Below, piece by piece: positions 37,866 to 48,826 of a stretch of DNA of 64,000 bases; positions within the stretch are counted from its first letter, which is position 1, and the number at the start of each line of letters is the position of its first letter. The stretch spans positions 248,001-312,000 of the forward strand of contig NZ_CP017715.1 in the NCBI RefSeq assembly GCF_001854125.1, written 5' to 3'. The notes under the pieces were generated by a model. That model searched no databases. It worked only from the letters and a program-made list of their open reading frames with translations, and was not told where the DNA came from. The position numbers were made by a program, and so were the translations under genes. The DNA comes from Marinobacter salinus. Its GTDB lineage: Bacteria; Pseudomonadota; Gammaproteobacteria; Pseudomonadales; Oleiphilaceae.

Positions 37866-39452
37866 TTGATCTCTACCGCCAATATCACCATGCAGTTCGG
37901 GGCCAAGCCCCTGTTTGAAAATGTTTCCGCCAAGTTTGGCAATGGCAACCGGTACGGCCTGATCGGCGCCAATGGTTGCGGGAAATCCACGCTGATGAAA
38001 ATTCTCGGTGGCGATCTCGAACCTTCTGGCGGCCAGGTCATGCTGGACCCGAACGTTCGCTTGGGCAAGTTGCGCCAGGACCAGTTTGCCTATGAGGAGT
38101 GCACGGTTATGGATACCGTGATCATGGGCCACGAAGAGCTCTGGCAGGTAAAGAAAGAGAGGGACCGGATCTATTCCCAGGCCGAGATGAGCGAGGAAGA
38201 CGGCATGGCCGTGGCGGACCTGGAAGTTCAGTTTGCCGAAATGGATGGTTACACTGCCGAAGCCCGCGCCGGGGAGTTGTTGCTGGGCCTGGAAATTCCG
38301 CTGGATGAGCACAATGGTCCCATGAGTGCCCTGGCACCGGGATGGAAGCTGCGGGTGTTGCTGGCCCAGGCCCTGTTCTCCGATCCGGACGTGCTATTGC
38401 TAGACGAGCCCACCAACCACCTGGATATCAACACCATACGCTGGCTGGAGAATATTCTGGTTGCCCGCAACAGCACCATGATCATCATCTCCCACGACCG
38501 CCACTTCCTGAACAGTGTGTGCACGCACATGGCGGATCTGGACTACGGTGAGCTGCGCCTGTTCCCGGGCAATTACGACGAGTACATGACAGCCGCCACC
38601 CAGGCCCGCGAGCGCATGCAATCCGACAACGCCAAGAAGAAGGCCCAGATTGCCGAGTTGCAGCAGTTTGTCAGCCGCTTCTCGGCCAACGCCTCCAAGG
38701 CCAAGCAGGCCACTTCCCGCGCCCGCCAGATCGACAAGATCCAGCTCGAAGAGGTGAAGCCGTCCAGCCGTGTGAGTCCGTTTATCCGCTTTGAGCAGGG
38801 CAAGAAGCTGCATCGTCAGGCGGTTACTCTCAAAAACCTGACTAAGGGCTTTGACGGTGAAACCCTGTTCAACAAGCTCAACCTTCAGGTTGAAGCCGGC
38901 GAGCGGGTGGCGATCATCGGACCCAACGGCATTGGTAAAACTACGCTGTTGCAGTGCATGAGCGGTGCCTACGAGCCAGACAGCGGTGAGGTAAAATGGA
39001 CGGACAGTGCCGAGGTTGGCTATTTCGCCCAGGACCACACCGCCGATTTCGCCGACGACGAAACTCTGACCGACTGGATGGCCCAGTGGACCACCGGCGG
39101 TGAGCAACTGATTCGCGGCACTCTGGGCCGCATGCTGTTTTCAGGTGACGACATCGGAAAATCGGTAAAGGTGATTTCCGGTGGTGAGCAGGGCCGGATG
39201 CTGTTCGGCAAGCTGATCCTGCAGAAGCCCAACGTGATGTTGATGGACGAGCCCACTAACCACCTGGATATGGAGTCCATCGAAGCCCTGAACCTGGCGC
39301 TCGAGAACTACCCCGGTACGCTGGTTTTCGTCAGCCACGACCGGGAGTTTGTTTCCTCGCTGGCGACGCGCATTATCGAGCTGAAAGCGGATGGTGTGAC
39401 TGACTTCAGTGGGTCTTATGATGATTATCTTCGGAGTCAGGGGTACCTTTAA
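37866..39452 (+). CDS. ybiT: ABC-F family ATPase YbiT
   Basis: A 528-residue protein with two ATP-binding cassettes and no membrane domain, acting at the ribosome. The first Walker A is GANGCGKST (34-42) and the second GPNGIGKTT (about 356-364). LSGG-type signatures and the DEPTNHLD Walker B boxes are present. The whole sequence matches E. coli YbiT closely, including the linker [20 protein letters not shown]. The start aligned to YbiT is TTG 37866, and the next ATG (37890) would remove the first eight residues. There is no strong ribosome-binding site, so translation may be modest or regulated. A leader hairpin lies just upstream. Confidence 0.95.
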
Positions 39453-39471: not shown

Positions 39472-39580
39472 GGCAGCCGGGAAGGGCTGTCCAAAACCCG
39501 CTCCTTCGGCACGTCCATGTGACGCTTGAGCTCCGCCATCCATGGCTGCGCACAGTTTTGGACAGCCCTTCCCGGCTGCC
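39472..39580. repeat. Inverted-repeat element with conserved loop, copy 1
   Basis: Two perfectly complementary 26-base arms (39472-39497 and 39555-39580) flank a 57-base loop. It begins 19 bases after the ybiT stop. The second half of the loop (39511-39554) is almost identical to the loop of a second element at 47942-48050, whereas the arms differ apart from an inner TCCAAAA/TTTTGGA. Inside the loop, GCCAT-CC-ATGGC forms a small hairpin. It could act as a terminator or 3' stabiliser, but the shared loop suggests a dispersed repeat family. Confidence 0.8.
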
Positions 39581-39625
39581 TGAACAAGCCTTTGCGTGGC
39601 CTACAAATTTCCAGGAGAGAACAGC

Positions 39626-40168
39626 ATGGACGAGATAGAGGTAATAAACGCATCCCGGAAATGGGTTGAAGACGTAGTCGTTGGTTACAACCTTTGCCCG
39701 TTTGCCAAGAGAGAGCTTCTGCGGAATCGCGTCCGGTTCGTGGTGTCGGAGGCAGAGACCGAAGACGAACTCCTTCAGGCGCTGCATTCCGAACTTCAGC
39801 GTCTGGACGATGAGCCGGGCGTTGAAACCACCGTGCTGATTCATCCCGGTGTTTTGCAGGAGTTTGGCGCCTACAATGAGTTTCTGGATGCGGCTGATGG
39901 TTTGTTGGCCTATCTCGAGATGGAGGGCGTATACCAGATTGCGAGCTTCCATCCGGACTATCAGTTCGAAGGGACAGAGCAGGATTCGGCCGAGAACTAC
40001 ACCAACCGTTCCCCGTACCCGATGCTGCACCTGTTACGTGAAGCCAGTCTGGAAGCGGCGATTGGAAGTTATCCGGATGTAGAGGGCATCCCTCAGAGAA
40101 ACATCGAGCTGATGGAAAACCTCGGCACAGACAAAATGCGGGAAATTCTCGCCAATTGCCTGCAATAG
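39626..40168 (+). CDS. DUF1415 domain-containing protein
   Basis: A 180-residue soluble protein. The DUF1415 signature is seen in the N-terminal part (ASRKWVEDVVVGYNLCPFAKRE) with a conserved cysteine at residue 23, in ETTVLIHPG and in the C-terminal NRSPYPMLHLLREASLE. AGGAG at 39613-39617 is placed well before ATG 39626. An upstream ATG at 39596 lies nearer the repeat and has no ribosome-binding site. Function unknown. It is followed after 50 bases by the methyltransferase-like gene and then the sirtuin gene, likely one operon. Confidence 0.87.
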   Translation: MDEIEVINASRKWVEDVVVGYNLCPFAKRELLRNRVRFVVSEAETEDELLQALHSELQRLDDEPGVETTVLIHPGVLQEFGAYNEFLDAADGLLAYLEMEGVYQIASFHPDYQFEGTEQDSAENYTNRSPYPMLHLLREASLEAAIGSYPDVEGIPQRNIELMENLGTDKMREILANCLQ

Positions 40169-46606: not shown

Positions 46607-47923
46607 ATGATCTCTTCAAGCCAGATTTCACTTTTTCAGGAGAGCTCCCGTCAGGTATCGGCTTTCGAAAGCGCCCAGCTGAGAATAAACCGCCAGGTTG
46701 CTGCGTCGCCCCAGGCCAATGAAAAGGCCCGCGGATCCGAACTGACTTTGCTGCGCGAGGCAGCCTATCGGTATAGCAGCCAGGAGCAGCTTGCTTTTCG
46801 AAACTCTGCCACCGTTAGCGATGATAACCGCAGCTCTGTGTTTACCAGTGCCCAGTTAGCTGAGAAAAGCACTGACCTCCTGTTGATGGGGCAACAGGCC
46901 ATTAACGTGAGCCGGGCAGCACTGGGAGGTGAGGCCGGTGTTGAGGCGCAGGGTAGTCTGTCAGTGACTGCCGGGCGCTACATGTTCTATTCGGAAACCG
47001 AAACCAGGAGTTTTGCCTCCAGCGGCAGCATAGCTCTTGAGAGTGGTGAAACGATTGATTTCACGCTGTCACTGAGACAGTCACAATCCCGATCCTATGA
47101 ATACTCCGAGCTTGTAAAGATCCAGGAGCGTCCGCTCACTGATCCGCTGGTCATCAACTTTGGCTCGGCTTCTGCCAGGCTCACTGACACTTTGTTTGAG
47201 TTCGATATCAGCGGCAACGGCGAGTCCGGTCAGTTTGCCACCCTCGGCAGCGGGAGTGGCTACCTGGTGCTTGACCGCAATGGTAACGGCAAAGTTGACG
47301 ATGGTTCTGAGCTTTTTGGCCCTCAAAGCGGCTCAGGTTTTGGTGAATTGGCGAAGTTCGACGACGATGGCAATCGGTGGGTTGATGCCAATGACGAGAT
47401 TTTTCAGTCGTTGTCTGTCTGGGTTCAAGCGGAAGATGGCTCGCAAACCCTGAAATCGTTGGACGAGGTTGGTGTTCAGGCACTTTACGTTGATAGCGCT
47501 GAAGGCCGCTTTACTCTGGCGAATGGGCAGGGTATCCCGCTCGGGCAGGTAAAAGCCTCAGGGGTATATCTGACAACAGATGGAGAGGTACGAACGCTGG
47601 AGGAGATTGATCTGGCAGAGCAGAAAACCGGGCAGGCGTCCTCTGCACAAGAGTCTCTTTCAACTGAAGGTAATGGCCGGGCTCCTGGGGATAGTGGTTT
47701 GGTTGAAGCCAGGATCGATGCTATGCGCTCTGCTCTGGAAAAGCTCAACGAAATCAGAGAGAAGCAAAAGGCGTTCATTGAGGGATCCAAAGAAACGGGT
47801 AAACCGAAATCCCCGTTGGATGATTATTTGAAGGTCATCGACAAGCTGCGACTGGAAATGCTTAACAGTCAGGATGAAAAGAAGCAGGCTGCCAGTCGAT
47901 ACCTGGAATTCGCTAATCTTTGA
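46607..47923 (+). CDS. EF-hand-like calcium-binding protein of unknown function
   Basis: A 438-residue protein without a signal peptide. The N-terminal 200 residues are Ser, Gln and Ala rich, with an SRSYEYSELVKIQ strand-like part. Two calcium-loop-like segments follow, DRNGNGKVDDGSELFG at about 222-237 and DDDGNRWVDANDEIF at about 248-262, a pair seen in many large exported or repeat-containing proteins. The C-terminal part (about 350-438) is a charged coiled coil. The lack of a type I or Sec export signal leaves its location open. No close family is recognised. A conserved inverted-repeat element starts 18 bases after the stop. Confidence 0.65.
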   Translation: MISSSQISLFQESSRQVSAFESAQLRINRQVAASPQANEKARGSELTLLREAAYRYSSQEQLAFRNSATVSDDNRSSVFTSAQLAEKSTDLLLMGQQAINVSRAALGGEAGVEAQGSLSVTAGRYMFYSETETRSFASSGSIALESGETIDFTLSLRQSQSRSYEYSELVKIQERPLTDPLVINFGSASARLTDTLFEFDISGNGESGQFATLGSGSGYLVLDRNGNGKVDDGSELFGPQSGSGFGELAKFDDDGNRWVDANDEIFQSLSVWVQAEDGSQTLKSLDEVGVQALYVDSAEGRFTLANGQGIPLGQVKASGVYLTTDGEVRTLEEIDLAEQKTGQASSAQESLSTEGNGRAPGDSGLVEARIDAMRSALEKLNEIREKQKAFIEGSKETGKPKSPLDDYLKVIDKLRLEMLNSQDEKKQAASRYLEFANL

Positions 47924-47941: not shown

Positions 47942-48050
47942 GGCCAGTACAGGTGCCCCTTTCCAAAAAACGCTGTTAATACGTCCCTGTACGCTTGGCT
48001 CCGCCATCCCTGGCTCCGCACATTTTTGGAAAGGGGCACCCGCACTGGCC
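47942..48050. repeat. Inverted-repeat element with conserved loop, copy 2
   Basis: Two 28-base arms (47942-47969 and 48023-48050) pair with two mismatches around a 53-base loop. The last 42 loop bases match those of copy 1 at 39511-39554 almost base for base, including CTCCGCCATCC and CGCACA, and the loop has the same plus-strand orientation. The arms differ from copy 1 except near the loop (TCCAAAA). It lies between convergent genes, 18 bases after one stop and 5 bases before the other. Confidence 0.8.
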
Positions 48051-48055
48051 ACGAA

Positions 48056-48826
48056 TCACCGGGAGGCATCTGGCATAGGGTTTGTGTTACGCAGCGCCAG
48101 CTCCCCAATACCCGGTAGTTTGATACCGAGGCCCAGGGGATTTACCCCAAACGATAAACCCAGAACGTTCAGCTCCAGGCCTTCCCGAACGCCCGCCAGT
48201 AATCCGAAATAGCCACCCAGTGAAAACTGGTAGCCCGCGCCGCCCGGGGCTTCAGCGAACACGTCGCTGCCAAGGTAATCCTTGCCAATGGCATTGCTGG
48301 GCAATGCCACATTCAGCCCCGGCACTTCCCGTATCACCCAGGCGATAAATGTATTGCTGTTTGGGCCCGGCCAGGCCTCGTATTCGGTGGGGTAGGGATA
48401 GGCTTGCACCGCCTCATAGATCGCCGGAATCAGGTCCTGGGCTTCTTCGCCGCGGATGTCTGCATAGAGCTCGGGTTCAGCGCCATACCATCGTCTGTCC
48501 GGCTCGCCCGGGTGTGAATTGACCACATAATGTCGCCAGCCGGTCACTTCGTGAACCCGGTAGGTATTGGCGCCTTTTTCTTTCGTTGCGATCCACGTAT
48601 GAACCGAAAAGTAACCCCGCCAGCGCCAGGCTCGGGCGCCATAGACCTGCACAACCGCTTCATCGAACTGCTCCGGACGGGGTGCAATCCCGGCGCTGTC
48701 ACGGCTTGCGGTTTGCCAGCTCTCTGCTCCCTGAAGACTGCCGCTGGTAGCTAGCAGTAAAGGGCCAGCCAGCAGCAGGAGGAGGCCGCCGAGTGACCAG
48801 GCGGCGTACTTGAAGGTTTGTTTCAT
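48056..48826 (-). CDS. DUF3750 domain-containing protein
   Basis: A 256-residue protein with an N-terminal signal or anchor helix (about residues 8-27) and a long periplasmic part. The DUF3750 signature is clear in RAWRWRGYFSVHTWIATKEKGA and in the later SNTFIAWVIREVPGLNVALPSNAIGKDYL. The LGSDVFAEAPGG to GLSFGVNPLGLGIKLPGIG end matches as well. The conserved Asn-Thr-Phe segment recalls NlpC-like proteases, but no catalytic triad is sure. Function unknown. The repeat element touches its 3' end. Confidence 0.85.
   Translation of the reverse strand: MKQTFKYAAWSLGGLLLLLAGPLLLATSGSLQGAESWQTASRDSAGIAPRPEQFDEAVVQVYGARAWRWRGYFSVHTWIATKEKGANTYRVHEVTGWRHYVVNSHPGEPDRRWYGAEPELYADIRGEEAQDLIPAIYEAVQAYPYPTEYEAWPGPNSNTFIAWVIREVPGLNVALPSNAIGKDYLGSDVFAEAPGGAGYQFSLGGYFGLLAGVREGLELNVLGLSFGVNPLGLGIKLPGIGELALRNTNPMPDASR

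Follow-up and report, generated by a model that had tools for sequence, protein, structure and literature searches.

Dispersed TwoAYGGAY-like elements of Marinobacter: candidate CsrA-binding RNA modules with changing but matched stems

Introduction

How can the two arms of a long hairpin keep matching each other while their sequence changes, and the loop between them stay nearly fixed? The question is raised by two elements (copies 1 and 2) in the 64,000-nt stretch of the Marinobacter salinus genome analyzed here (hereafter the window; contig NZ_CP017715.1, positions 248,001 to 312,000). A sequence-only reading of the window had described copy 1 as a perfect 26-bp inverted repeat around a 57-nt loop, the last 44 bases of which are present again in copy 2, and had pointed out that the arms of the two copies have only the inner TCCAAAA in common and start 18–19 nt past plus-strand stop codons. 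This description holds throughout, the 44 bases recurring with a few substitutions and two bases missing, and the arms starting 19 (copy 1) and 18 nt (copy 2) past stop codons that end at 39452 and 47923, respectively (Table 1).

Table 1. Coordinates in the window of the two elements, their parts and their neighboring genes.
Feature	Coordinates	Strand	Evidence or remark
Copy 1, whole element (26-bp perfect outer stem + 57-nt loop), RF01731-like	39472..39580	-	cmscan 40.3 bits; R1 109.5 bits
Copy 1, functional-strand 5' arm	39555..39580	-	arm pairing
Copy 1, functional-strand 3' arm	39472..39497	-	arm pairing
Copy 1 hairpin 1, GCC-AUGGAU-GGC, ANGGAN hexaloop	39535..39546	-	stem invariant in 53 sequences; covaries in other genera
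Copy 1 hairpin 2, CAC-AUGGAC-GUG, ANGGAN hexaloop	39510..39521	-	sequence, alignment
Copy 2, whole element (28-nt arms, 53-nt loop)	47942..48050	-	RF01731 22.6 bits; R1 109.4 bits
Copy 2 arms	47942-47969 / 48023-48050		28 nt, 93% complementary
Copy 2 hairpin 1, GCC-AGGGAU-GGC	48003..48014	-	sequence
Copy 2 hairpin 2, UAC-AGGGAC-GUA	47980..47991	-	sequence
Copy 1 neighbor: ABC-F family ATPase (NCBIfam PRK15064)	37866..39452	+	
Copy 1 neighbor: DUF1415 protein	39596..40168	+	
Copy 2 neighbor: 438-aa protein, without family match	46607..47923	+	
Copy 2 neighbor: DUF3750 protein, convergent with the 438-aa protein gene	48056..48826	-	

Results and Discussion

A high-copy family in Marinobacter and beyond

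A search of the M. salinus genome and its relatives for further copies of the loop, the check that the sequence-only reading had proposed, returned many, with the loop conserved across genera. Within M. salinus (G000; one contig, 4.12 Mb), the conserved core pattern occurs 22 times when up to two mismatches are allowed, with one occurrence (L026) lying within unrelated sequence, vs. none for a reversed control pattern. R1, a covariance model made with 51 Marinobacter elements and both window copies, detects 31 full-length copies in this genome (E ≤ 1.2e-10); copies 1 and 2 are far beyond chance. The element occurs in 60 out of 61 Marinobacter genomes, with 0 to at least 61 copies each, and, across the order, in 76 of 196 genomes and 40 of 96 genera, the largest count (at least 142) coming from one genome of another family. 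In named genomes, a scan matched at least 119 stretches, and Marinobacter was every named source among the matches listed. Four genomes (G046, G012, G020 and G025) carry only 0–5 copies vs. most Marinobacter, and retain csrA. Elements may also lie close together, as in a single intergenic region of M. salinus (contig positions 3442086-3442409, L149 and L156) where two of them sit ~100 bp apart in opposite orientation; similar pairs are seen in L059, L062, L110, L181 and L184.

Such a high and very uneven copy number within one genus would suit a DNA-level hairpin repeat, selfish or mobile but non-autonomous (MITE- or REP-like), a single strand of which would be recognized by a strand-specific enzyme, the GGA loops serving this enzyme and not CsrA. 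However, plasmid and phage collections yielded no blastn match, and other lines of evidence given below make this origin unlikely.

Relationship to TwoAYGGAY RNA

Copy 1 was matched end to end by cmscan, on the minus strand, to TwoAYGGAY RNA (Rfam RF01731, clan CL00106; Weinberg et al., 2010, PMC2864571) at 40.3 bits (E 1.6e-5), and the scores of other copies range from 22 to 43 bits. The Rfam gathering score of this family is 43 bits, which few copies reach (43.1 bits in M. salinus, 43.9 bits for L274 from another genus, 45.6 bits for L116) and the window copies do not (40.3 bits for copy 1, 22.6 bits for copy 2), hence the term TwoAYGGAY-like variant is used for these, without counting them as members. 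The RF01731 model hits 21 places in M. salinus at E ≤ 1, and none of 14 control genomes. As for the AYGGAY terminal loops of the model, copy 1 has AUGGAU and AUGGAC, and copy 2 has AGGGAU and AGGGAC, i.e., a G at the Y position, which over all copies is an N. The external stem of the RF01731 model, which has been called “not well conserved” (PMC4333381), is present here around both hairpins, covaries, and spans 28–29 bp. Binding of TwoAYGGAY by CsrA has been predicted (PMC4333381), and no experimental test of this RNA was found in the literature searched. A separate Rfam match, 5_ureB_sRNA at 119 bits (L007:1762-2048, minus strand; near the element at M. salinus contig positions 99990-100105), is probably conserved urease-gene coding sequence.

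A covarying stem and a functional strand

On the minus strand, the sequence of the loop is TGTGCGGAGCCANGGATGGCGGAGC...CANGGANG...AGCGT, which corresponds to two hairpins with ANGGAN hexaloops and further GGA motifs. Both hairpins are found in 193 out of 211 copies, and variation falls at the N positions flanking GGA. ANGGAN is the loop in RsmE NMR structures and in the CsrA SELEX consensus (PMC7652899), and the exact coincidence of the variable bases with the two N of this CsrA loop tells against a mobile repeat. So does the covariation of hairpin 1 across genera: in 26 elements from other genera of the order, this hairpin is longer and covaries (91% vs. 50% shuffled) while keeping its C-ANGGAN-G loop, and the outer stem is also 96% Watson-Crick.

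The proposed covariation of arms around a fixed loop is clear: across 127 copies, 96.4% of the inner 26 pairs are Watson-Crick vs. 52% with arms shuffled among copies, a figure that leans towards pairing since arms were placed by a best-hairpin search and copies with <18 pairs were excluded. A MAFFT alignment (A1), with rows from the same selected copies, gave 97.7% paired cells (70.9% shuffled) and a covariation score of 0.707 (0.172 shuffled, at most 0.141 when slid). The edge of the stem is sharp, with pairing (G-U included) of 86% at bp 27, 61% at bp 29, and chance level at bp 30. Beyond it, a weak inverted flank motif is seen ~31–39 nt outward of the arm inner ends (in functional-strand sense, TTGG-like ahead of the stem and CCAAA-like behind it); with its offset of ~3 nt, this motif may mark the true ends of the element.

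On either strand, folding of the outer stem reaches an MFE z-score of about -6 to -8. The loop alone folds no better than shuffled sequences (z 0.19 and -0.61), and the two hexaloop hairpins are absent from the predicted MFE structure of copy 1 on both window strands.

The two strands differ in their mismatches. Among 206 distinct arm pairs, non-Watson-Crick pairs comprise 126 G-U vs. 11 A-C on the minus strand (p = 7e-26), and this bias is alike in all gene contexts. The bias follows the orientation of the loop, which would be hard to obtain from an orientation-blind process, so that its likeliest cause is that the minus strand, as single-stranded RNA or DNA, is under selection (or is processed). 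Together, covariation and G-U bias agree with the selection on an RNA fold put forward earlier. What had not been foreseen is that the functional strand is the minus strand, to which both the RF01731 match and the G-U bias point, that the elements are mostly sub-threshold relatives of a known Rfam family, and that the loop can change orientation (see below).

It could also be that only the structure matters, i.e., that the elements are long gene-3'-end hairpins with a role in mRNA protection or processing, whichever the strand (as an RNase III substrate or 3' end barrier), with the loop being secondary. A stem length fixed at 28–29 bp, a preference for gene 3' ends, and the scarcity of wobble pairs in the inner stem, as though both strands counted, are in line with such a role. 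However, wobble pairs are strand-biased and no other part of the element is as conserved across genera as the loop, hence we consider a purely structural role quite improbable.

Elements lie behind genes but ignore gene direction

Copy 1, on the minus strand, is antisense to both of its neighbors (ABC-F ATPase and DUF1415), and copy 2 is placed between convergent genes (the 438-aa protein and DUF3750). Over 122 copies, with the functional strand set rightward and gene calls taken from a crude longest-ORF rule, 55 had convergent and 11 divergent neighbors (p = 4e-8), and co-directional contexts were split into 30 sense and 26 antisense. Elements are thus situated behind genes, yet indifferent to gene direction, and from this roughly random orientation about half of the co-directional copies would lie outside the host mRNA. 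The orientation shared by copies 1 and 2, which had been remarked upon, is thus real but incidental. No promoter is visible for the antisense copies, though these keep the G-U bias. Disregard for gene direction and under-representation in divergent intergenic regions would also be compatible with a mobile repeat.

The location after stop codons and the GC-rich stem evoke ordinary intrinsic terminators of unrelated origins. However, of 210 copies only 4 have a T-run behind the stem on the functional strand (16 on the other), a scan for hairpins with 3–8 nt loops found no terminator at copy 1, and a loop conserved across genera would not be expected of unrelated terminators. This explanation is hardly credible, and on these sequence criteria the element, the arms of which have no T-tract, is not an intrinsic terminator. 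With many copies, a loop conserved across genera and arms that are not terminators, none of the outcomes that the sequence-only reading had named as refuting it was obtained.

Changes at orthologous sites

At the copy-1 site, the element lies between the same genes in most of 29 readable loci. Only remnants are left in L189, L195 and L197, and part of the loop is gone from L208; the single-arm loci L195 and L197 are read as deletions given that the element is present in most of the genus. Three loci (L188, L201 and L213) have a long loop with extra hairpins (138 nt in L188), and L188 and L190 have identical inner arms around different loops. This long-loop variant, also found at L147:6030-6235 (about 3624030-3624235 on the M. 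salinus contig), occurs in more than one species, and its extra hairpins include ACCCCTCCGGGGT, with GGA on the functional strand. L018, a candidate truncated element with an IS end in its loop, turned out to be a complete element with extra loop hairpins.

Judging from this distribution, copy 1 has long occupied its site and is not freshly built. Two candidate origins, fresh insertion into pre-existing hairpins and copying of the arms from flanking sequence at insertion, were rejected, as no clean empty site with a single arm was found as ancestral state. Persistence of copy 1 at one site across most of the genus also weighs against a mobile repeat, as does the failure to see a clean empty site or target duplication in between-species comparisons. 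Of the usual MITE/REP features (conserved ends, target-site duplications, clean empty sites), the weak flank consensus outside the stem would suit a mobile repeat; the absences in the between-species comparisons resemble deletions or diverged sequence.

Two observations bear on how arms stay matched. First, eleven hand-picked close pairs displayed 29 double vs. 9 single arm changes, with double transversions in 16 of the 29, although these pairs share branches and their arm changes are therefore not independent events. Second, the loop can be inverted in place: it is inverted at the copy-2 site in L224 and L238 and, with the arms conserved around it, between L139/L082 and L178, and both orientations coexist within 13 of 31 orthologous site groups. 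Homogenized arms together with an inverted spacer are what template switching between the arms of an inverted repeat is known to leave behind (PMC8604942), and this process has been proposed to maintain RNA stems (PMC8794818). With paired substitutions and loop inversion at orthologous sites, fold-back copying appears the best mechanism for the arms, and selection on an RNA fold for the loop. The suggestion that the element builds its own arms by fold-back copying would thus survive as far as self-copying is concerned, in the form of template switching, but not as recent construction of copy 1. Strong selection with stepwise compensation may alternatively be the source of matched arms.

A putative dispersed CsrA sponge

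CsrA is encoded in all 61 Marinobacter genomes, and M. salinus has two, a 65-aa protein and a divergent paralogue. We favor, with a probability of roughly 0.6, a reading in which the elements are dispersed minus-strand RNA modules that bind CsrA as a sponge, their arms being kept matched by template switching. The 28–29 bp outer stem of each module would display the two ANGGAN-hexaloop hairpins, this pair would serve as a double docking site for a CsrA/RsmA dimer, and the modules near gene 3' ends would jointly form a distributed CsrA-binding sponge or buffer reservoir. Transcription of the module, CsrA binding and CsrA titration are all inferred here from sequence. Speaking against this reading are the roughly random orientation to co-directional genes with no promoter in sight, the scores of the window copies below the Rfam cut-off, the loop that by itself folds no better than its shuffles, and the predicted copy-1 fold without the hexaloop hairpins. 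The arms, which all share a consensus, would be those of a single family that have diverged from copy to copy. A change in one arm would pass to the other by replication template switching, which would occasionally invert the loop, and stem-breaking changes on the functional strand would be purged; arm-to-arm copying, purging and loop flips would together lead to a fixed loop with changing but matched arms.

If so, CsrA activity is possibly set by dispersed repeats that the Rfam cut-off mostly misses, and a little-studied Rfam family becomes a high-copy, testable system. Many copies at traceable orthologous sites also provide a natural data set for how RNA stems stay paired while drifting, and thereby address the long-standing question of template switching vs. 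stepwise compensation through G-U.

Comparison with known systems

The family shares with Rfam TwoAYGGAY a pair of hairpins with A-N-G-G-A-N loops within an external stem. It differs from it in being mostly below the gathering score, interspersed at tens to >140 copies per genome, and endowed with a covarying, near-perfect 28–29 bp external stem, an invertible loop and a long-loop variant. TwoAYGGAY is classed in Rfam as Cis-reg, whereas the random orientation to genes seen here argues against a cis role. New here are the copy number, the covarying stem, the loop inversion, the long-loop variant and the indifference to gene direction; in the main texts of the literature searched, we found no report of a TwoAYGGAY-like family as repeats, of such stem covariation, or of loop inversion.

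Having multiple GGA hairpins per RNA, and CsrA as the probable target by analogy, the elements resemble CsrB/CsrC and RsmX/Y/Z. These come from dedicated sRNA genes, one to a few in number, whereas the element here is dispersed. The CsrB model (RF00018) had no match in M. salinus, and all matches of the RsmZ model (RF00166) were below cut-off and away from the elements, with control genomes matching too. It is thus tempting to speculate, and only tentatively so, that much of the order relies on a CsrA sponge scattered over the whole genome and made of tens to >140 invertible modules, the placement of which disregards gene direction. Such a sponge would replace or complement sRNA genes of the CsrB/RsmYZ type, and template switching would keep its drifting stems perfect.

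Finally, homogenized arms and a spacer inverted at the same site liken these elements to quasipalindrome correction by template switching (PMC8604942). The published descriptions cited here concern individual inverted repeats and RNA genes, whereas here a whole interspersed RNA family, with 53–58 nt spacers, would be concerned.
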